Shown piece by piece: positions 7,048-63,604 of a DNA stretch of 64,000 nt. The stretch comes from Aequorivita marisscotiae (lineage in GTDB: Bacteria > Bacteroidota > Bacteroidia > Flavobacteriales > Flavobacteriaceae). The position numbers and the translations under genes were made by a program. Positions within the stretch are counted from its first letter, which is position 1. Each line of letters starts with the position of its first letter. The notes under the pieces were generated by a model. That model worked only from the letters and a program-made list of their open reading frames with translations, was not told the DNA's origin and made no database searches. The stretch spans positions 3,140,501 to 3,204,500 of the forward strand of contig NZ_CP122379.1 in the NCBI RefSeq assembly GCF_029814825.1. Direction: 5' to 3'.

Positions 7048-7581
7048 ATGAAAACCATTTGGACCATAGGCCATTCCACCCGAAGCATCGACGAGTTTTT
7101 AAAATTATTGACCACCTTCAATATTAAGACACTCGTTGACGTACGCCATTATCCCGGTTCCAGAAAATTTCCGCAGTACAACAAAGACAGTTTAGAAATA
7201 TCACTTCCTGAAAACGGTGTTGAGTATGAACATTTGGTAGATTTAGGGGGTCGTAGAAAACCGATGCCAGAATCGAACAACGATGCCTGGCGATTAGATT
7301 CGTTTAAAGGCTATGCAGATTATATGGAAACCGAACAGTTTAAGCAAGCGTTAAAATCATTAAAGGAAATTGCCACAGTAAAACAAACCTCAATAATGTG
7401 TGCCGAAGCGGTTTGGTGGAGCTGCCATCGCTCTTTAATTGCAGATATTTTAAAAGCAGACGGTTGGAAAGTTTTGCACATTATGGGTGAAAATAATGCA
7501 ACAGAGCACCCCTACACCGCCCCCGCAAAAGTGATAAATGGGAAGTTAGATTATTCGAAGGAAAAAGAAATAAAGACGTGA
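7048..7581 (+). CDS. DUF488 family protein
   Basis: A 177-residue cytoplasmic protein of unknown biochemical function. Family features seen are TIGHSTRSIDEF at the N-terminus, LVDVRHYPGSRKFPQYN, and the C-terminal CAEAVWWSCHRSLIADIL with its conserved Cys and CHR. It begins 69 nt after gdx, so it could share that transcript. Its stop codon lies inside the first word of a 7-bp-repeat arm (7575-7606). Confidence 0.85.
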   Translation: MKTIWTIGHSTRSIDEFLKLLTTFNIKTLVDVRHYPGSRKFPQYNKDSLEISLPENGVEYEHLVDLGGRRKPMPESNNDAWRLDSFKGYADYMETEQFKQALKSLKEIATVKQTSIMCAEAVWWSCHRSLIADILKADGWKVLHIMGENNATEHPYTAPAKVINGKLDYSKEKEIKT

Positions 7582-7685
7582 GACGCGATGATGTAAGACG
7601 TGAGACTCGTGTACGTATCAGATAAAGTTTACTTCTTATATATTTAATAATTAGTCCTACGTCCTAAGTCCTACAGTTTTAAGTC
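7575..7685. repeat. ORF-less inverted pair of 7-bp repeat arms (solo S23-type element)
   Basis: The left arm, 7575-7606, carries the words GACGTGAGAC and GTAAGACGTGAGAC. The right arm, 7654-7685, is GTCCTAC, GTCCTAA, GTCCTAC, A, GTTTTAA, GTC, which is the complementary sense. The right arm aligns unit by unit, including the single extra base after the third unit, with the right arm of the S23 unit at 11167-11198. There is no gene between the arms, only about 48 AT-rich bases. The left arm overlaps the stop codon of the DUF488 gene. Confidence 0.7.
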
Positions 7686-8268: not shown

Positions 8269-10677
8269 ATGTCAAAAAGAAGAATTAACAAAGTAGCGGT
8301 AATCGGTTCCGGAATAATGGGAAGCGGCATAGCTTGCCATTTCGCCAATATTGGTGTGGAAGTGCTTTTGCTAGACATTGTTCCACGCGAACTTACAGAT
8401 GCCGAAAAAAAGAAAGGGCTAACCCTGGAAGATAAAGTGGTGCGCAACCGTATTGTAAACGACGATTTGCAGAAAGCAATAAAAAGCAACCCTGCTCCAC
8501 TCTATCACAAGGATTTTGCAAAACGAATTTCCACCGGAAATTTAGAAGACGATATATCGAAAGTAAAAACTGCCGATTGGATAATTGAAGTGGTAATTGA
8601 ACGTTTGGATATCAAAAAACAAGTTTTTGAAAATCTAGACAAACACAGAAAGCCGGGCACGCTAATTACTTCCAATACTTCCGGTATTCCTATAAAATTT
8701 ATGAGTGAAGGGCGAAGTGAGGATTTCCAGAAACACTTCTGCGGAACACACTTTTTTAATCCACCGAGATATTTAAAATTATTTGAAATTATTCCAGGTC
8801 CAAAAACTTCACCCGAAGTATTGGAATTCCTAAATGGTTACGGTGAAAAATTTCTCGGAAAAACTTCCGTTGTCGCAAAAGACACCCCTGCATTTATAGG
8901 AAACAGAATTGGAATCTTCGGAATCCAAAGTCTGTTTCATCAAGTGAAGGAAATGGGGCTCACCATTGAAGAAGTAGATAAATTAACCGGCCCGGTAATT
9001 GGTCGTCCAAAATCCGCAACTTTCCGTACGGTAGACGTTGTAGGTTTAGACACATTGGTACACGTTGCAAAAGGTATTTATGACAACGTACCCGATGACG
9101 AGGAGCACGGCATTTTCCAAATTCCCGGTTTTATCGATACCATGATGGAAAAAAAATGGTTGGGTAGCAAAAGCGGACAAGGTTTCTACAAAAAGGTAAA
9201 AAATGACGACGGAAGTAGCGAAATTCTATCGCTTGATCTCGATACCATGGAATATCGAAAAAGCAAAAAAGCATCTTTCGGCACTTTGGAAAAAACAAAA
9301 TCGGTTGATAAAGTTACAGACCGTTTTCCAATTCTTATTAAAGGTGAAGATAAAGCTGGCGAATTTTACCGAAAAAACTTCGGCGCAATGTTCGCCTATG
9401 TTTCAAAACGAATTCCTGAAATAACCGACGAGCTTTACAAGATTGATGATGCCATGAAAGCTGGTTTTGGCTGGGATAACGGTCCATTTGAAATCTGGGA
9501 TGCCGTTGGCGTTAAAAAGGGAATTGAATTAATAAAAGATTTAGGGAAAGAACCAGCCGCTTGGGTTAATGAAATGCTTGACGCTGGCGTAGAGTCATTC
9601 TATACCGTAAAAGACGGAAACACCTATTATTACGATATTCCACAGAAAAAACATGTAAAAGTTCCCGGACAGGATTCGTTTATAATTTTAGACAACATCC
9701 GTAAAACTTCCGAAGTTTTTAGAAATAACGGGGTTATAGTTGAGGATCTGGGCGACGGTATCTTAAACGTAGAATTTATAAGTAAGATGAACGCCGTAGG
9801 TGGCGACGTTTTGGCTGGAATAAATAAAGCAATTGATTTGGCCGAAAAAGATTACGACGGTTTGGTAATTGCCAATAACGGCAAAAACTTTTCAGTTGGC
9901 GCCAATATTGGAATGATATTTATGATGGCCGTAGAGCAGGAATATGATGAATTGAACGCTGCGGTAAAATACTTTCAGGATACAAGCATGCGACTTCGTT
10001 ATTCGTCGATTCCCGTTGTGGTTGCGCCGCACGGAATGACATTGGGCGGAGGTTGTGAGTTTACATTACACGCAGATCGTGTGGTTGCAGCAGCCGAAAG
10101 TTACATTGGATTGGTTGAGTTTGGCGTTGGGGTTATTCCCGGCGGAGGCGGTTCTAAAGAAATGGCAATGCGTGCGAGCGATACATTTATGAAAGACGAT
10201 GTGGAGTTAAACAGACTTCAGGAATATTTCCTGACCATTGCAATGGCAAAAGTTTCCACTTCGGCTTACGAAGCTTACGATACGGGAATTCTTAAAAAAG
10301 GAAAAGATATCGTAATTGTTAATCAAAACAGACAAATAGCCGCAGCGAAGGAAGTAGCGCGTTTTATGGCCGATCAAGGATATACGAAACCAATACAAAG
10401 AACCGATGTAAAAGTACTCGGAAAACAGGCCTTGGGAATGTTCCTCGTAGGGACCGACCAAATGGTTGCCGGTAATTACATTAGCGAGCACGATAAAAAA
10501 ATTGCAAATAAGCTTGCCTACGTGATGGCGGGTGGTGATTTAAGCGAAGGAAGTTACGTAAGCGAGCAATATTTGCTAGATCTTGAAAGAGAAGCGTTCT
10601 TGAGCCTTACGGGTGAAAGAAAGACTTTGGAAAGATTACAACATATGATTCAGAAAGGGAAACCGTTGCGTAATTAA
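8269..10677 (+). CDS. 3-hydroxyacyl-CoA dehydrogenase / enoyl-CoA hydratase fusion
   Basis: An 802-residue two-activity beta-oxidation enzyme. The NAD-binding Rossmann loop VIGSGIMGSGIACHFA is at residues 9-24; the dehydrogenase core includes SNTSGIP and HFFNPP and extends to about residue 420. The crotonase (hydratase) domain follows, with the oxyanion-hole loop NFSVGANIG and MTLGGGCEFTLHADRV. This order is the reverse of E. coli FadB, where the hydratase comes first. It works with the thiolase at 11212 and the acyl-CoA dehydrogenase at 13019. An S23 unit separates it from the thiolase gene, its left arm starting 3 nt after this stop codon. Confidence 0.93.
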   Translation: MSKRRINKVAVIGSGIMGSGIACHFANIGVEVLLLDIVPRELTDAEKKKGLTLEDKVVRNRIVNDDLQKAIKSNPAPLYHKDFAKRISTGNLEDDISKVKTADWIIEVVIERLDIKKQVFENLDKHRKPGTLITSNTSGIPIKFMSEGRSEDFQKHFCGTHFFNPPRYLKLFEIIPGPKTSPEVLEFLNGYGEKFLGKTSVVAKDTPAFIGNRIGIFGIQSLFHQVKEMGLTIEEVDKLTGPVIGRPKSATFRTVDVVGLDTLVHVAKGIYDNVPDDEEHGIFQIPGFIDTMMEKKWLGSKSGQGFYKKVKNDDGSSEILSLDLDTMEYRKSKKASFGTLEKTKSVDKVTDRFPILIKGEDKAGEFYRKNFGAMFAYVSKRIPEITDELYKIDDAMKAGFGWDNGPFEIWDAVGVKKGIELIKDLGKEPAAWVNEMLDAGVESFYTVKDGNTYYYDIPQKKHVKVPGQDSFIILDNIRKTSEVFRNNGVIVEDLGDGILNVEFISKMNAVGGDVLAGINKAIDLAEKDYDGLVIANNGKNFSVGANIGMIFMMAVEQEYDELNAAVKYFQDTSMRLRYSSIPVVVAPHGMTLGGGCEFTLHADRVVAAAESYIGLVEFGVGVIPGGGGSKEMAMRASDTFMKDDVELNRLQEYFLTIAMAKVSTSAYEAYDTGILKKGKDIVIVNQNRQIAAAKEVARFMADQGYTKPIQRTDVKVLGKQALGMFLVGTDQMVAGNYISEHDKKIANKLAYVMAGGDLSEGSYVSEQYLLDLEREAFLSLTGERKTLERLQHMIQKGKPLRN

Positions 10678-10680
10678 AAA

Positions 10681-10719
10681 GACTTAAGACTATATGACGT
10701 AAGATATAGGACTTAAAAC
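10681..10719 (+). repeat. Left (purine-rich) 7-bp repeat arm of S23 unit 1
   Basis: Words GACTTAAGAC, GACGTAAGAT and GGACTTAAAAC share the unit GAC(T/G)TAA. The arm begins 3 nt after the dehydrogenase/hydratase stop codon. Its reverse complement matches the array at 11167-11198. Confidence 0.75.
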
Positions 10720-10761
10720 CCTTTAAAACTGAGGTTTAATTTGTTAATAAATATAGAAGAT

Positions 10762-11127
10762 ATGGCTGCAAAACATAATTTTAGAAAACTTACTATTTGG
10801 AATGAAGGTATTGAATTGGCGAAAGAAACATATGCCACCACTAAAATATTTCCAAAATCTGAAACTTATGGATTGTCTAATCAGATGCAGCGATGCGCAG
10901 TATCTGTACCTTCAAATATTGCAGAAGGAACTGCTAAAAGCTCCGATAAACATTTTCTTCAATATTTAGAAACAGCTTTGGGCTCAGCCTTTGAATGGGA
11001 AACACAACTAATTATATCTTATGAAATAGGATATATTTCGGAGGAAACGTTTACACATTTAGAAACTAAAATTCAGAAAATCCAAGGAATGTTAACGCGT
11101 TTTATGGAAAGTCTGTCAAATCACTAA
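10762..11127 (+). CDS. S23 / four-helix-bundle protein (23S rRNA intervening-sequence type), copy 1
   Basis: A 121-residue all-helical protein of the S23 family, whose members are encoded in intervening sequences of 23S rRNA and are related to the Avd accessory protein of diversity-generating retroelements. Family marks are FRKLTIWNEGIELAK, FPKSETYGLSNQMQRCAVS, the hallmark VPSNIAEG, and GSAFEWETQLI. ATG at 10762 was chosen over a TTG at 10741 because the protein then begins with the usual HNFRKL. The gene sits in the gap between two beta-oxidation genes, bounded by repeat arms (10681-10719 and 11136-11198). Its molecular role is unknown. Basic residues would allow nucleic-acid binding. Confidence 0.88.
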   Translation: MAAKHNFRKLTIWNEGIELAKETYATTKIFPKSETYGLSNQMQRCAVSVPSNIAEGTAKSSDKHFLQYLETALGSAFEWETQLIISYEIGYISEETFTHLETKIQKIQGMLTRFMESLSNH

Positions 11128-11135
11128 TATAAATT

Positions 11136-11198
11136 TAAGACTTAAAACAAAGGATTGTATAGTTTAGTCTTACGTCCTACGTCTTACCGTCTTAAGTC
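11136..11198 (-). repeat. Right repeat arms of S23 unit 1
   Basis: A short purine word, TAAGACTTAAAAC (11136-11148), is followed by a pyrimidine arm of 7-mers GTCTTAC, GTCCTAC, GTCTTAC, C, GTCTTAA, GTC (11167-11198), the complement of the left arm. The pyrimidine arm ends 13 nt before the thiolase ATG. It is nearly the same sequence as the right arm of the ORF-less element at 7654-7685. Confidence 0.78.
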
Positions 11199-11211
11199 AA
11201 AAATTAAAACT

Positions 11212-12408
11212 ATGAAACAAAGAACTGCTTATATTGTTAAAGCATACAGAACCGCAGTGGGTAAAGCACCCCGCGGAGTTTTCCGTTTTAAAAGACCAGA
11301 CGAACTGGCTGCGGAAACTATTAAATATATAATGAACGAATTGCCGCAACTCGACAAAAAACGAATTGACGACGTAATCGTGGGCAATGCAATGCCCGAA
11401 GCCGAGCAAGGTCTGAATATGGGTAGGTTGATTTCGTTGATGGGGCTTGATATTGTTGATATCCCCGGAATGACGGTAAACCGCTATTGCGCATCGGGAT
11501 TGGAGACAATTTCAATTGCAACAGCAAAAATTCAAAGTGGAATGGCAGATTGTATAATTGCCGGTGGTGCAGAAAGCATGAGCTTTATTCCTATGGGTGG
11601 GTACAAACCTGTTCCCGACTATAAAGTTGCCAAAGAAGGTAATGAAGACTATTACTGGAATATGGGGTTAACCGCCGAAGCTGTTGCAAAAAAGTACAAT
11701 GTTTCTCGTGAAGACCAAGACGAATTTGCCTATACAAGTCAGATGCGTGCTTTAAAAGCGCAAGATGAAGATCGTTTTCAAGATCAGATAGTTCCTATAG
11801 AGATTGAAGAAACTTTTGTGAATGATTCAGGTAAAAAAGAAACCAGAAAATATACGGTAACCAAAGACGAAGGTCCTCGAAAAGGAACCAATATTGAAGC
11901 ACTTTCAAAACTGCGTCCTGTTTTCGCCCAAGGCGGAAGTGTAACCGCGGGTAATTCCTCTCAAATGAGCGATGGTGCAGCTTTCGCCGTTATTATGAGT
12001 GAAGAAATGGTAAAAGAGCTAAACTTAGAACCTATAGCTCGTTTAGTGAGTTATGCAGCTGTGGGTGTAGAACCCAGTATAATGGGAATCGGGCCGCTTT
12101 ATGCAATTCCAAAAGCCTTAAAGCAAGCAGGTTTAAAACAGGATCAATTAGATTTAATTGAATTAAATGAAGCTTTCGCTTCACAATCCTTAGCCGTTAT
12201 TCGCGGACTTGGTTTAGACAAAGAAATTGTAAATGTAAACGGAGGCGCAATCGCCATGGGGCATCCGCTAGGCTGTACCGGCGCCAAGCTGTCCGTTCAA
12301 TTATTCGATGAAATGCAAAAACGAGATATGCAAGGCAAATACGGAATGGTTACAATGTGTGTGGGAACCGGGCAAGGGGCTGCGGGAGTTTACGAGTTTC
12401 TGAAGTAA
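11212..12408 (+). CDS. Acetyl-CoA C-acyltransferase (3-ketoacyl-CoA thiolase)
   Basis: Cleaves 3-ketoacyl-CoA with CoA to acetyl-CoA and a shortened acyl-CoA. The nucleophilic Cys is in [11 protein letters not shown], the His in [17 protein letters not shown], and the second catalytic Cys in [11 protein letters not shown]. With ATG at 11212 the protein is 398 residues, normal for the family. An upstream TTG (11155) would add a peptide encoded by the repeat array and is rejected. Third enzyme gene of the beta-oxidation operon; S23 units lie immediately before and after it. Confidence 0.95.
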
Positions 12409-12411
12409 TTT

Positions 12412-12446
12412 GACTCAGGAATAAAGGGAAACAGGAACCAAGACTA
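12412..12446 (+). repeat. Left repeat arm of S23 unit 2
   Basis: Five consecutive 7-mers: GACTCAG, GAATAAA, GGGAAAC, AGGAACC, AAGACTA. The arm begins 3 nt after the thiolase stop codon. The word type (GA-N-TCAG) differs from that of unit 1, but its complement is found in the right arm at 12976-13007. Confidence 0.65.
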
Positions 12447-12474
12447 AAGTACAAATAAGACTAAAAGTGAATAA

Positions 12475-12834
12475 ATGAAACGGCATAATTTTAAAAAACT
12501 TCAAATTTGGAATGATAGTATGTCAATTATTGATCGTACCTATAAGTTTACTTGTAGTTTTCCAGATTTTGAAAGATTCGGATTGCGTACTCAAATGAAC
12601 AGATGTTCAGTTTCAATGGCTTCAAATATTTCCGAAGGAAGTAGCAAGAGAACCGACACTCATTTCGCTAAATATTTAGATGATAGTTTAGGTTCAGCTT
12701 TTGAATGGGAAACACAGTTGATAGTTGCATATCGACAGAATTATATTTCCGAAGAACTTTTTAAAGAATTAGAAAAAGAAATAAACATATTGCAAAAGAA
12801 AATTTCAAAATTCATAGAAAGTCTTGATATCTAA
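12475..12834 (+). CDS. S23 / four-helix-bundle protein, copy 2
   Basis: 119 residues. Starts HNFKKLQIWNDSM, with FPDFERFGLRTQMNRCSVS, MASNISEG, and the GSAFEWETQLIVAY block shared almost exactly with copy 1. It is clearly paralogous to copy 1 but diverged over most positions, so it is not a recent duplication. ATG at 12475 is the only sensible start. It sits between the thiolase and acyl-CoA dehydrogenase genes, flanked by its own type of repeat arm. Function unknown. Confidence 0.88.
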   Translation: MKRHNFKKLQIWNDSMSIIDRTYKFTCSFPDFERFGLRTQMNRCSVSMASNISEGSSKRTDTHFAKYLDDSLGSAFEWETQLIVAYRQNYISEELFKELEKEINILQKKISKFIESLDI

Positions 12835-12838
12835 AAAA

Positions 12839-13007
12839 GAATCAAGACATAAGTGAAGCTAGAAACAAGGCAAAGAAAACAGCCACAAAATTAGTGTAAA
12901 ACGTACTGAGCCCTGAGTCTAAATGAAAAGGTAAAAATATTAAATAACCCGAATCAGTTTAATAACAGCACAATCTGTCCTGTTTCTTGAGTCCTGATTC
13001 CCGAATC
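12839..13007 (-). repeat. Right repeat arms of S23 unit 2
   Basis: Starting 4 nt after the S23 stop there is a purine stretch (12839-12880: GAATCAA, GACATAA and further words). Two pyrimidine arms follow, at 12906-12919 (complement GACTCAG, GGCTCAG) and 12976-13007 (complement GATTCGG, GAATCAG, GACTCAA, GAAACAG). The last ends 11 nt before the acyl-CoA dehydrogenase ATG. Confidence 0.65.
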
Positions 13008-13018
13008 AAATAAAAAAT

Positions 13019-14830
13019 ATGAGCACAACTGAAACAAAAAATAACGAACTTCTCCGCGGCGGACAATTTCTAGTAAAAGAAACAAAGGCCGAAGACATCT
13101 TCACACCAGAAGATTTTTCCGAAGAACAAAAAATGATGCGCGACTCTGTAAAGGAATTTGTAGATCGCGAAATCTGGCCAAATAAGGAACGTTTTGAACA
13201 ACACGATTACGCCCTAACCGAAGAAATTATGCGAAAGGCTGGAGAAATGGGCCTTTTGGGGGTTGCCGTTCCTGAAGAATATGGCGGCCTTGGAATGAGT
13301 TTCGTAACAACAATGTTGGTTTGCGACTATATTTCGGGAGCAAGCGGTTCGGTGGCAACAGCTTTTGGCGCGCACACCGGTATTGGAACATTGCCAATAA
13401 CCCTATACGGTACCGAAGAACAAAAGAAAAAATACGTGCCAAAACTTGCAACAGGCGAATGGTTTGGAGCATATGCCCTAACCGAACCGGGAGCAGGAAG
13501 CGATGCCAATAGCGGAAAAACAAAAGCCGTGCTTTCGGAAGATGGAAAAACATATTCCATTAACGGTCAAAAAATGTGGATTTCTAATGCAGGCTTTTGT
13601 AATACTTTCATCGTTTTTGCCAGAATTGAAGACGACAAAAACATAACCGGATTTATTGTAGAAAACGACGCTTCAAACGGAATTACATTTGGCGAGGAAG
13701 AAAAGAAATTAGGTATTCACTCCTCCTCTACCCGTCAGGTTTTCTTTAACGATACTAAAGTTCCCACAGAAAATATGTTAGGGGAACGTGGTGAAGGCTT
13801 TAAAATAGCGATGAATGCACTTAACGTTGGTCGTATTAAACTTGCTGCTGCAGGTCTTGACGGGCAACGTAGGGTAATTTCAAAAGCGGTGGAATACGCT
13901 AATGAACGAATTCAATTTGATGTGCCAATTTCATCTTTTGGTGCCATTAAACTCAAATTGGCCGAGATGGCAACCAATGCCTATGTAGATGAAAGTGCTT
14001 CGTATAGAGCCGCTAAAAATATTGAAGACAGAATCGCTCTTCGTATTAAAGCTGGTAATAGTCATCAAGAAGCCGAGCTAAAAGGCGTAGAGGAATACGC
14101 TATTGAATGTTCAATTTTAAAAGTAGCTGTTTCAGAAGACATTCAACATTGTACAGATGAAGGAATCCAGATTTATGGCGGAATGGGTTACAGTGCCGAA
14201 GCCCCCATGGAGTCTGCTTGGAGAGATGCGCGAATTACACGTATTTACGAAGGCACAAACGAAATTAACCGGATGCTTTCCGTTGGCATGCTTGTTAAAA
14301 AAGCAATGAAAGGCCACGTAGATCTTTTAGGACCTGCACAAGCCGTAGCTTCAGAATTGATGGGAATTCCTTCTTTTGAAACTCCCGATTTCTCCGAATT
14401 ACTTTCCGAAGAAAAAGCAATGATTGCCAAACTGAAAAAAGTTTTTCTAATGGTTGCCGGAAGCGCTGTTCAAAAATATGGTACTGAGCTTGAAGAGCAC
14501 CAACAAACATTATTGGCCGCTGCAGATATTTTAATTGAAATCTATATGGCTGAAAGTACAATTTTACGAACTGAAAAGAACGCAAAACGCTTTGGTGAAG
14601 AGTCGCAGGTAGAGCAAATTGCAATGTCTAAATTATACTTATACCACGCTGTAGATATCATTACGGTTAAGGCTAAGGAATCTATCCTCTCATTTGCAGA
14701 AGGCGACGAACAACGCGCTATGTTAATGGGCTTAAAACGATTCACTAAATATCAAAACATGCCAAATATTGGCGAATTGAGAAGAACGATTGCCGCCAAG
14801 GTAATTGCAGAAAACAAGTATCCGTTTTAA
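13019..14830 (+). CDS. Acyl-CoA dehydrogenase, long form
   Basis: A FAD enzyme making trans-2-enoyl-CoA, the first step of beta-oxidation. FAD/substrate motifs are GAYALTEPGAGSDA and KMWISNAGFCN; the catalytic base region is RITRIYEGTNEINRML near residue 420, after GIQIYGGMGYSAEAPME. At 603 residues it has about 170 extra C-terminal residues compared with 380-residue short-chain enzymes, as in VLCAD/ACAD9-like proteins. Last gene of the marR-led operon. The electron acceptor (ETF) genes are not in the window. Confidence 0.95.
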   Translation: MSTTETKNNELLRGGQFLVKETKAEDIFTPEDFSEEQKMMRDSVKEFVDREIWPNKERFEQHDYALTEEIMRKAGEMGLLGVAVPEEYGGLGMSFVTTMLVCDYISGASGSVATAFGAHTGIGTLPITLYGTEEQKKKYVPKLATGEWFGAYALTEPGAGSDANSGKTKAVLSEDGKTYSINGQKMWISNAGFCNTFIVFARIEDDKNITGFIVENDASNGITFGEEEKKLGIHSSSTRQVFFNDTKVPTENMLGERGEGFKIAMNALNVGRIKLAAAGLDGQRRVISKAVEYANERIQFDVPISSFGAIKLKLAEMATNAYVDESASYRAAKNIEDRIALRIKAGNSHQEAELKGVEEYAIECSILKVAVSEDIQHCTDEGIQIYGGMGYSAEAPMESAWRDARITRIYEGTNEINRMLSVGMLVKKAMKGHVDLLGPAQAVASELMGIPSFETPDFSELLSEEKAMIAKLKKVFLMVAGSAVQKYGTELEEHQQTLLAAADILIEIYMAESTILRTEKNAKRFGEESQVEQIAMSKLYLYHAVDIITVKAKESILSFAEGDEQRAMLMGLKRFTKYQNMPNIGELRRTIAAKVIAENKYPF

Positions 14831-14854
14831 ATAACCGGCTCCTAAATGTTTAAG

Positions 14855-14898
14855 CCGCGAATTCACAAATAAACTTTAAAGTTATTGTGAATTCGTGG
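14855..14898. repeat. Long imperfect inverted repeat
   Basis: CCGCGAATTCACAAATAA pairs with TTATTGTGAATTCGTGG around a 9-nt loop; only two positions break the pairing. It follows the beta-oxidation operon and could end its transcript, but there is no clean T-tract directly behind it. It may equally be a dispersed repeat. Confidence 0.6.
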
Positions 14899-14925
14899 TT
14901 TCCCTTTTTATGGCGCAGAGTTTGC

Positions 14926-25162: not shown

Positions 25163-25173
25163 AAGTTTTATTA

Positions 25174-25204
25174 GATATAAGAGAAAAGAAGAAAGATAAA
25201 AGAC
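25174..25204 (+). repeat. Repeat arm of S23 unit 3 (moxR side)
   Basis: 7-mers on the + strand: GATATAA, GAGAAAA, GAAGAAA, GATAAAA, GAC. They are complementary in sense to the array at 25609-25664. The arm ends 11 nt before the moxR ATG and starts 2 nt after the S23 stop in transcription terms. Confidence 0.72.
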
Positions 25205-25206
25205 TA

Positions 25207-25563
25207 CTAACGCAATGTTTTTTGAAAACCTGAGGTCATCATTTGCAATTCTGTTATATTATTTTCCAACTTTTCCAATTCTGCATCATTAATATATTTT
25301 TTGTGATGTGCGATTAATAATTGAGTACTTAATTCATAAGATGATCCCAAAGAAATATCTAGAAAATGATTAAAAGATTTATCGGTTCGGGAAGATCCCT
25401 CTGCGATATTACTTGGAATTGAGATTGAACATCGACTCATTTGAGAAGTCAAGTTATACTGTTCTTTCTGCGGAAAAGCTTCTAAGATATCCGATGTATC
25501 AAAAGCAATATTCAAGGCCTTCTGCCATATTTTTAAATTTTTATAATTGTGTTTGATTTTCAT
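25207..25563 (-). CDS. S23 / four-helix-bundle protein, copy 3
   Basis: 118 residues from the ATG at 25563. Family marks are YKNLKIWQKALNIAF, FPQKEQYNLTSQMSRCSIS, IPSNIAEGSSR and SLGSSYELSTQLL. It is more distant from copies 1 and 2 than those are from each other: GSAFEWETQL is replaced by GSSYELSTQL. It lies between the VWA and moxR genes in the same direction and is bounded by 7-bp arrays of a third sequence type. Confidence 0.88.
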   Translation of the reverse strand: MKIKHNYKNLKIWQKALNIAFDTSDILEAFPQKEQYNLTSQMSRCSISIPSNIAEGSSRTDKSFNHFLDISLGSSYELSTQLLIAHHKKYINDAELEKLENNITELQMMTSGFQKTLR

Positions 25564-25608
25564 AGGATGCATATTTTAGAATTAAATAAATCTGTTTTTC
25601 ACTTTTTC

Positions 25609-25664
25609 TTTCCTCTTTATTCTTTCTTCTTTATTCTTTCCTCTTTATTCTTTCTCCTTTATTT
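25609..25664 (-). repeat. Eight-unit 7-bp array of S23 unit 3 (VWA side)
   Basis: On the + strand: TTTCCTC, TTTATTC, TTTCTTC, TTTATTC, TTTCCTC, TTTATTC, TTTCTCC, TTTATTT, with no slips. Complement consensus GA-N-N-AAA. The array ends one base before the VWA stop codon (25666-25668, read on the minus strand), so it starts directly behind that gene. Confidence 0.85.
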
Positions 25665-25665
25665 T

Positions 25666-26787
25666 TCAACGCAATCGTTTTGTTCTGTTGGTTTCATAAT
25701 CACTAAAAATCATTTCGCCCAAACCTTTTAATCCTGTGTAAAAAGCTTTGCCTTTATTGGCTGCGGTAAATTCTTCTACAAACTGCATTAAATAAGGGTC
25801 TTCAGCAATCATAAAAGTTGTAATCGGGATGTGAAGTTTTCGCGCTTGCGCAGCCATGGAGTAACATTTATTCACAATATAACTGTCCAGACCATTGCTG
25901 TTTTTATAATAGCGCCCATTGGGAAGCCTTACACAACTTGGCTTGCCATCGGTTATCATAAAAATCTGTTTATTGGTGTTTCGTTTTCTTCGCAATAAAT
26001 CCATTGCCAATTGAAGTCCCGCAACCGTATTTGTGTGATACGGCCCCACATTTAAATACGGCAAATCCTTAATTTTAATGGGCCAGGCATTGTTTCCGAA
26101 GACTAAAATATCCAACGTATCTTTTGGGTAGCGCGTGGTAATAAATTCTGAAAGTGCCATCGCCACCTTTTTTGCGGGCGTTATGCGATCTTCGCCGTAA
26201 AGAATCATGCTGTGGCTTATATCAATCATCAGCACTGTACTCATCTGGGTTTTATACATGGTTTCTTCAACCACCAAATCGTTTTCAGACAGTGTAAAAT
26301 CGCCCAAACCGTGATTTATCTGTGCGTTTTTAAAACTTTCGGTCATTGAAATTTGTTCCAGCGAATCGCCAAAACGGTAGTCGCGAAACTCGCCGGCTTG
26401 CTCATCTCCCCTACCCGTTTGTTTTGTTCGGTGGTTGCCTGCCCCGCTTTTTCGGAGTTTCCCGAAAATTTGTTCCAAAGCCCGCTTCCGGAGTGCTCTT
26501 TCGGTTTTTTCGGTGATTGCCAAACCGCTTTTACCATCAATTTTAATTTCTTCGCGCAGGTAGCCTTTCTTTTTTAAATCTTCCACAAAATCGTCTAAAG
26601 TATAATCGTCTGTAGTAAGATTATATTCTTCATCTAACTGCTTTAGCCAGTCCATCGCTTCATCAAAATCACCGGAGGTATGGGTAATTAGTTCCTGAAA
26701 AACATCAAAAAGTTTCTCGAATGGCGATTGGTCTTTGGGAGTGTGTTTTGTGAAAATAAATCCGCTCTTTGCCTCTTTTCTATTCAT
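25666..26787 (-). CDS. VWA-domain protein, partner of MoxR ATPase
   Basis: 373 residues, no signal peptide. The N-terminal helical region (1-150) is followed by a von Willebrand A domain with the MIDAS motif DISHS at residues 189-193, a Thr in the HTNTVAGLQ block and the Asp in FMITDGKPS. A stretch rich in G, K and R (about 108-135) links the two parts. It is first in the minus-strand operon with S23 copy 3 and the MoxR ATPase, and probably binds metal and serves as the ATPase's substrate-facing partner. Confidence 0.9.
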   Translation of the reverse strand: MNRKEAKSGFIFTKHTPKDQSPFEKLFDVFQELITHTSGDFDEAMDWLKQLDEEYNLTTDDYTLDDFVEDLKKKGYLREEIKIDGKSGLAITEKTERALRKRALEQIFGKLRKSGAGNHRTKQTGRGDEQAGEFRDYRFGDSLEQISMTESFKNAQINHGLGDFTLSENDLVVEETMYKTQMSTVLMIDISHSMILYGEDRITPAKKVAMALSEFITTRYPKDTLDILVFGNNAWPIKIKDLPYLNVGPYHTNTVAGLQLAMDLLRRKRNTNKQIFMITDGKPSCVRLPNGRYYKNSNGLDSYIVNKCYSMAAQARKLHIPITTFMIAEDPYLMQFVEEFTAANKGKAFYTGLKGLGEMIFSDYETNRTKRLR

Positions 26788-63472: not shown

Positions 63473-63562
63473 TTTCAACTCAGACCTACGAGGAAGTTTT
63501 GCAGAAAAGCAACACAATGCCTTGCAGGTAAATACATTCAAAAAAAATATCACGTCTCACAT

Positions 63563-63600
63563 CTAATGTCTAATGTCTAATGTCTAATGTCTAATGTCTA
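63563..63600 (-). repeat. 7-bp tandem array CTAATGT x5
   Basis: Five exact copies of CTAATGT (63563-63597) with diverged units before them (CACGTCTCACAT). The reverse complement GACATTA has the same 7-bp GAC-start form as the S23 arms. The array ends 4 nt before the ATG at 63605. No S23 gene is attached. Confidence 0.85.
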
Positions 63601-63604
63601 AAAA

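Follow-up and report, generated by a model that had tools for sequence, protein, structure and literature searches.

Inverted short-word arrays around S23 genes in Aequorivita marisscotiae and other bacteria: candidates for homing-like mobile cassettes

In the stretch of 64,000 nt of the Aequorivita marisscotiae genome analysed here (the window; contig NZ_CP122379.1, positions 3,140,501 to 3,204,500), two genes for S23 four-helix-bundle proteins are located between the enzyme genes of one beta-oxidation operon. Each of them is enclosed by a 5' arm and a 3' arm, arrays of short words that are complementary to each other across the gene, and the whole arrangement is called a unit in the following. 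A third unit and a hairpin without a gene are also present in the window. The features are as follows.

8269..10677, plus strand: fusion of 3-hydroxyacyl-CoA dehydrogenase (3HCDH) and enoyl-CoA hydratase, host gene upstream of unit 1
10681..10716, plus strand: 5' arm of unit 1, words GAC(T/G)TAA/GTAAGAT
10762..11127, plus strand: S23 gene of unit 1 (S23-1), PF05635 four-helix bundle by profile match and structure model
11163..11198, plus strand: 3' arm of unit 1, complementary words GTCTTAC and GTCCTAC
11212..12408, plus strand: thiolase, host gene separating units 1 and 2
12412..12436, plus strand: 5' arm of unit 2, words GACTCAGG/GGAAACAGGA
12475..12834, plus strand: S23 gene of unit 2 (S23-2), PF05635 four-helix bundle by profile match
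12978..13007, plus strand: 3' arm of unit 2, complementary words (TCCTGATTC)
13019..14830, plus strand: acyl-CoA dehydrogenase, host gene downstream of unit 2
25207..25572, minus strand: S23 gene (L004) of the third unit, whose whole span is 25173-25667
25602..25667, minus strand: 5' arm of the third unit in the sense of the gene, words GAATAAAG/AAGAAAG
25173..25205, minus strand: 3' arm of the third unit
7575..7685: gene-less hairpin with words of unit 1 (7575-7606 on the plus strand, 7654-7685 as the complement), between DUF488 and MarR genes

The initial annotation, made from the letters of the window, had placed two S23 genes within one beta-oxidation operon. This is borne out by the neighbouring fusion, thiolase and acyl-CoA dehydrogenase genes and by profile searches, in which PF05635 was matched with E values of 1.4e-37 (S23-1) and 1.2e-31 (S23-2) and bit scores of 128.6 and 109.5, respectively, at a cut-off of 33.8. 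Coordinates and word types had also been given correctly: the 7-mer arms are complementary within a unit and different between the units, start 3 nt past the upstream stop codons (at 10681 and 12412) and end 13 and 11 nt short of the next ATG. The third unit (minus strand, 25173-25667) has heptad arms of the type AGATAAA/CTTTCTT.

With flanks of 300 nt, stem scores of 32 and 24 were obtained for units 1 and 2. Since the 95th percentile of control genes is 24 and the 99th is 29 (200-nt flanks), unit 1 alone is beyond chance, and unit 2 alone is borderline, at the control 95th percentile. In the predicted RNA fold the arms close the whole of unit 1 (z -5.5, 100 shuffles); for unit 2 a z value of -4.0 was calculated (20 shuffles). 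The word GACNTAAGAC, with one mismatch allowed, occurs 18 times in the window versus 7.1 times expected, a number reached in none of 100 shuffles. The genome to which the window belongs (3.45 Mb) contains 13 S23 matches, eight of them with stem scores of at least 29.

Whether such arms belong to S23 genes in general was determined with 133 of 180 S23 hits from loci of the genus and the phylum, which were unique, full length and provided with flanks; partial, edge and duplicate hits were dropped. Stem scores between 200-nt flanks were compared with those of 345 control genes from 20 sampled stretches and the window. Mispaired S23 arms had been abandoned as a null, because words are common to several loci, and the control genes were substituted. 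The median stem score was 32 for S23 genes versus 18 for controls; 81 of the 133 S23 genes exceeded the control 99th percentile (29) and 15 the control maximum. A Mann-Whitney test versus the 151 controls that have a gap on either side gave p 3e-33. Autocorrelation of the arms peaked at lag 7 on both sides (17.2 of 28, versus 12.9 and 13.2 in controls) and again at lag 14. An S23 gene with inverted word arrays, put forward as an element family in the initial annotation, is thus a recurrent unit, found also in other phyla, and in the sets tested S23 genes mostly have arms. Gaps with period-7 arms but no gene, which would have spoken against this family, were rare, one in 223 sampled gaps or two if the stem criterion was omitted; these figures are lower bounds, because the screen missed the window's own hairpin at 7575-7685.

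The units show a common polarity. The left arm contains more G than C in 116 units and more C than G in seven. In 177 of 196 units the S23 gene reads in the same direction as both neighbours, and in three it is opposed to them (L197 left out); the background of co-directionality is 74% of 223 gaps. In the 62 units for which both neighbours were found, the median distance is 1.5 nt from the stop codon to the beginning of the left arm and 12 nt from the end of the right arm to the start codon. The ratio of nonsynonymous to synonymous substitution rates (dN/dS) of S23 had a median of 0.09 in 133 pairs and was below 0.5 in all of them, showing that the protein is under strong purifying selection. 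RNA processing had also been considered in the initial annotation, and here a wobble signature at the RNA level was not detected: among arm mismatches on the sense strand, the G.U type was not in excess over the A.C type (100 versus 124, p 0.12), a result that argues against an RNA stem being tightly selected.

All 28 genomes of the genus contain S23 matches, between five and 21 each, and at least one match was present in 157 of 198 sampled genomes of Bacteroidota. In a scan of named genomes, from which the best 80 of more than 580 hits were taken and 76 scored (L186, L196, L234 and L255 left off), stem scores above 29 were obtained for 24 of 38 loci in Bacteroidota and 21 of 38 outside this phylum, the latter from Clostridia, Cloacimonadota, Planctomycetota, Betaproteobacteria, Acidobacteria, candidate phyla and others. 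Two further sets were collected, in which 29 of 31 loci from Xanthomonadaceae and 21 of 26 loci from other phyla were scored. In the second set, from seven genomes and partly overlapping with the scan of named genomes, 19 of 21 loci were above 29. Four out of five S23 loci on cyanobacterial plasmids had stem scores of 50-63. One of these plasmid loci lies between nrdB and nrdA, two are located between cas6 and cas4 and one is next to an integrase gene; two of the units are oriented against their neighbours. The unit between both ribonucleotide reductase genes of a Nostoc plasmid (L350) has (TAGGGAG)n arms, those between cas6 and cas4 on two plasmids (L352 and L353) have (TTAGCTT)n and (GGTGACA)n. 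Words of 8-10 nt instead of 7 nt occur in some units, and a unit of Aequorivita aurantiaca (L197) shares its arm core with L016.

Comparison of the same gaps across the genus revealed a fast turnover. The thiolase locus was found in 27 of the 28 genomes. Upstream of thiolase, 14 genomes have an S23 gene, of four kinds by sequence and word, and the other 13 a gene-less hairpin. Downstream, S23 is present in 15 genomes (five with a distant PF05635 clade, and some decayed), a gene-less hairpin in seven and a bare spacer of 27-35 nt in five. The sufC-sufD gap contains S23 in nine of 28 genomes and a remnant in one. In the cysD-cysN gap, readable in 25 genomes, S23 was found in nine, a PD-(D/E)XK gene in six and a DUF559 gene in one; several of these occupants carry arms of their own (Pfam was run on one gene of each kind). 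The PD-(D/E)XK genes of the GxxExxY type with repeat arms in this gap are L294, L295, L298, L299, L302 and L303, where S23 is present in other species, and the DUF559 gene (L305) has palindromes of the type CCCCAACCCTAAAGGG. From one related species to the next, the same gap is filled by S23 genes of different clades, a hairpin without a gene, another small gene or a bare spacer. On the 28-genome tree, at least 10, 10, 9 and 7 changes of S23 presence are required at the four gaps, and 21 changes for eight states at the first of them; decayed (G023), frameshifted (G019) and remnant (G024) S23 genes were counted as S23. The remnants lie in the thiolase gap of G023 and the sufC gap of G024.

Clean empty sites, named in the initial annotation as support for a self-contained element, were not obtained. 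Unoccupied gaps look replaced as a whole spacer, not like surroundings interrupted once, and no target-site duplication was seen by eye in the thiolase, sufC-sufD and cysD-cysN gaps compared. Of the seven gene-less hairpins between the thiolase and acyl-CoA dehydrogenase genes, four have the same word as the S23 unit that occupies the neighbouring gap in that genome (rank 1-3 of 26). When all 21 filled gaps are considered, the word-sharing signal is modest, with six at rank 3 or better versus 2.4 expected. By their words, the gene-less hairpins look like decayed or non-autonomous copies.

Exchange between species was assessed with 134 pairs of orthologous sites in which both flanks were 0.70-0.90 identical, the cassette being defined as the S23 gene together with 50 nt of flank on either side. 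In 11 pairs the cassette was at least 0.95 identical with flanks of 0.80-0.87. Ten of these pairs are distinct, L001/L032 having been counted twice (as L032 and via L049), and they represent five gaps and six gap/clade sites. Unit 1 of the window is such a case: identity between its genome (G000) and G027 is 0.96 in the cassette, versus 0.80 and 0.84 in the flanks. In 988 coding pairs, none of the 460-nt windows of thiolase, sufC and cysD reached an identity excess of this kind. The islands of identity are bimodal and include the non-coding arms.

The borders of the exchanged tracts could be followed in trios of genomes. In five of ten trios, which represent three events, edges were clear and the tract ended 6-80 nt from the gap. 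The cassette of G014 is 99% like that of G002, whereas its surroundings match the unit-less sister G007, starting 9 nt before the gap on the upstream side and 6 nt after it on the downstream side. G027 resembles G000 for no more than 12 nt on the upstream side of the gap and 15 nt on the downstream side; in G007, the edges are about 80 nt upstream and 27 nt downstream. It thus appears that species have exchanged whole cassettes at corresponding gaps, the borders of the tracts lying near the cassette. The mobility proposed in the initial annotation is thereby substantiated in the form of exchange as one piece (10 distinct pairs, edges in three events).

The relation between protein and arms depends on the distance considered. 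Among 900 sampled pairs of unrelated S23 proteins (less than 50% identity), 99.3% showed a better fit with their own arms than after swapping. This share was 70% among 92 pairs at 60-80% identity from different contexts, and within orthologous groups there was no difference (10 of 22 groups positive, p 0.61). A clade therefore passes on its word by descent, and over longer periods the word changes in both arms. The arms of 39 pairs that are 70-80% identical and located in unrelated contexts had median similarities of 33 and 29, versus a background of 16. Co-evolution of protein and arms, as previously suggested, accordingly holds in so far as the word follows S23 kinship in unrelated contexts; a lock-step change of the arms within orthologous groups was not seen. 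All 113 S23 pairs of at least 80% identity share their flanking genes and none is at a new site; moves to new sites are therefore old or rare, and change at the same site is fast. Judged by these comparisons, arms and gene form one evolutionary unit.

The structure model of S23-1 consists of four helices (mean predicted local distance difference test score, pLDDT, 95.7) and resembles 2gsc with template modelling (TM) scores of 0.84-0.90 and also 2rld, which places it among the four-helix bundles. The similarity to Avd, a protein of diversity-generating retroelements (4dwl), and to a retroelement ribonucleoprotein (8ube) is weaker by score, with TM values nevertheless of about 0.76-0.78. In the available excerpt of PMC4990558 a solved S23 is described as a ring of five. 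No transposase was detected within the units by Pfam.

It seems probable to us that these units are short mobile cassettes, each with an S23 gene flanked by inverted arrays of a word of usually 7 nt, and that they spread in a homing-like manner. A cassette would occupy the gap between two co-directional genes, beginning at the stop codon upstream and ending roughly twelve nucleotides before the next start. Its behaviour would be that of a homing element, the cassette-bearing allele replacing the other one at the same gap, with a driver that we infer. Intergenic same-site exchange with local co-conversion, by which homing elements are recognised, was found by sequence comparison; a nuclease, the other mark of such elements, was not. 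In the mechanism envisaged, the S23 ring, as a relative of Avd, would bind its own word arrays in nucleic acid and assist the homing-like replacement of the spacer allele or protect the cassette. The arms would mark the ends of the cassette and, as the stem of a co-transcribed hairpin, could keep damage to the host operon low, in the manner of 23S rRNA intervening sequences. Hairpins without a gene would then be decayed or non-autonomous copies.

Several observations weigh against the cassette interpretation. Only PF05635 was detected in S23-1 and S23-2 by Pfam, no nuclease or recombinase domain, and the driving activity was not seen. In the window's genome, five of the 13 S23 loci have stem scores below 29, and L009 carries long arrays on both sides in the same, not the inverted, orientation; in the Xanthomonadaceae sample only 10 of 29 loci were above 29. 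The island pairs are few, mutually related and include the double count. Over 157 pairs the mean excess of cassette identity is about zero, 31 pairs showing a deficit versus 20 with an excess of at least 0.10 and both flanks below 0.90, a mixture which is to be expected if most cassettes are old. Four of the ten trios are mixed and without edges (G002/G023/G014, G026/G023/G014, G026/G023/G019 and G011/G013/G002; G010/G021/G007 was left out), and a fifth (G000) is only partly clear. The turnover states were assigned by eye and without a shuffle control. A phage as carrier was considered and rejected: S23-1 had no S23 match among 50,697 phage records.

Among the other explanations, an RNA element of the intervening-sequence kind deserves most attention, even if we regard it as rather unlikely. 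RNase III would cut the arm stem and free the S23 stretch from the operon mRNA, S23 would bind the stem, and spread would be due to ordinary homologous recombination in the flanks, the cassette being carried along. Closure of the units by their arms in the RNA fold (z -5.5 and -4.0) and the strong co-directional bias (177/196) are in line with this, as is the Coxiella 23S rRNA intervening sequence, for which the accessible part of PMC4990558 describes a stem of 28 bp that RNase III cuts, with tandem heptamers ahead of the S23 gene. The missing excess of G.U mismatches and the two cyanobacterial plasmid units opposed to their neighbours do not fit, and tracts ending 6-15 nt from the gap are not what ordinary recombination would lead one to expect. 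That S23 is simply a host gene, for example a regulator of its operon, appears less probable still. The arms would be repeats grown by slippage and made complementary by template switching during replication, and the islands a matter of constraint or chance. A dN/dS of 0.09, the constant context of S23 genes with at least 80% identity, and arms that are imperfect and variable in copy number would agree with this. It leaves unexplained the turnover of occupancy between sister species, the different S23 clades, PD-(D/E)XK and DUF559 genes in the same gap, the bimodal islands extending into non-coding arms, and the rarity of gene-less arms in sampled gaps.

Movement in trans by a transposase, as for a DNA transposon or a miniature inverted-repeat transposable element, would account for inverted ends, multiple copies and gene-less derivatives with shared words, and five matches to Y1 (IS200-like/RAYT) transposases are present in the window's genome. 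We consider it very unlikely: no target-site duplication was visible by eye, and close copies are at the same site, with 0 of 113 pairs at new ones. Y1 transposases were rejected as movers, since the loci read (three of five) carry palindromes of their own and not unit words. Three consecutive Y1 transposase genes (L070-L072) are found in this genome, with GTCCCGTTAGGGAC palindromes around those read. The least credible explanation is retrohoming, in which S23 would play the part of Avd, its relative by fold, and the reverse transcriptase would be provided in trans. The fold similarity mentioned above is in its favour, and Avd is essential to retrohoming and resembles PF05635 according to the part of PMC10053308 at hand. 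No reverse transcriptase (PF00078) was detected in the window's genome (99.93% complete), which nevertheless has 13 S23 matches, nor in 19 of the 28 genomes; a reverse transcriptase partner was therefore rejected.

A question apart from these is whether the cassettes belong to something larger. PD-(D/E)XK 'GxxExxY' genes (PF13366) resemble S23 units in having inverted word arms and in occupying the same cysD-cysN gap, whereas the protein is unrelated and has a nuclease fold. Of 30 loci fetched, 24 were scored (four partial and two short ones were dropped); 18 of them had stem scores above 29 (median 35.5), with words of about 9 nt by eye and a weak lag signal. A self-contained element, as originally proposed, and one exclusive to S23 are thus not supported, and these genes suggest a wider class, some members of which bring their own nuclease. 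Tentatively, and with less confidence than for the S23 cassette itself, a bacteria-wide class of word-armed intercistronic homing cassettes may be considered. Unrelated small proteins (S23 rings, PD-(D/E)XK and DUF559 nucleases) would recognise their own arm words and replace the spacer at matching gaps, S23 homing without a nuclease of its own. The rRNA intervening sequences would be a special case, and many orphan heptamers in Bacteroidota, Cyanobacteria and Xanthomonas would be remains.

By anatomy, rRNA intervening sequences are the nearest known kind, with an S23 gene in the loop of inverted ends. This likeness, pointed out in the initial annotation, is strengthened by the Coxiella element, in which tandem heptamers GACAGAT are present in the 5' end before the S23 gene and which is called selfish (PMC4990558, as far as its available text goes); S23 genes are also described within 16S and 23S inserts of candidate phyla (available portion of PMC11270868). 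In contrast to these, the units of the window lie between protein genes and not in a 16S or 23S rRNA gene, and units are many per genome, have different words and are exchanged gap-for-gap between species. By behaviour, free-standing homing endonuclease genes are nearest. Those of T4-like phages are, in the excerpt of PMC2988022 that was available, likewise small intergenic genes, which in relatives are replaced by other genes in the same gap and which are inherited with flanking co-conversion; S23 units differ by their repeat arms, the lack of a nuclease domain, their location on bacterial chromosomes and exchange edges within 6-80 nt. With Avd of the diversity-generating retroelements S23 shares the four-helix fold by structure comparison, but no reverse transcriptase, a component of those elements, was detected in the window's genome.

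Orphan heptamer arrays between genes, TAACTGA (PMC4679880) and GGGAATC/GGGGA(C/T)T (PMC4692102), are reported from Bacteroidetes, Cyanobacteria and Xanthomonas, the Xanthomonas ones forming inverted pairs with a G-rich sense strand near stop codons; S23 genes are not mentioned alongside in the available parts of these two papers. A possible link of these published arrays to S23 is suggested by the (TAGGGAG)n and (GGTGACA)n arms on cyanobacterial plasmids and the GGGAATC-like arms at L393 and L395. A figure legend of a CRISPR survey lists a 23S rRNA IVP domain (available portion of PMC10910872); as a guess, this entry could stem from S23 cassettes sitting in cas operons. In the open-licence PMC literature, a scope that excludes subscription papers and preprints, no account of armed S23 cassettes outside rRNA genes, in protein operons, was found; if they are swapped between species, as they appear to be, they would be a widespread, so far undescribed homing-like mobile element.

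S23 genes have been regarded as rRNA-intron-like oddities. With matches in 157 of 198 sampled genomes, they rank with the most common small genes without a known function in Bacteroidota. Should they prove to be exchange cassettes equipped with word arms of their own, S23 would gain a testable role, rRNA intervening sequences would join a much larger class, and a source for unexplained heptamer arrays would be at hand. It would also mean that species exchange gene gaps inside essential operons in an unusual manner, the edges amounting to a few up to some tens of nucleotides.

Two other repeats were noticed in the window. A hairpin AAGCCGCGAATTCACAAATAA/TTATTGTGAATTCGTGGTTT is located at 14852-14901, 3' of the acyl-CoA dehydrogenase gene, and its word resembles the arms of PD-(D/E)XK (PF13366) genes, for example L333 and L338. 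A perfect tandem array of the 7-nt word TCTAATG, 5.7 copies long, is found at 63562-63601.

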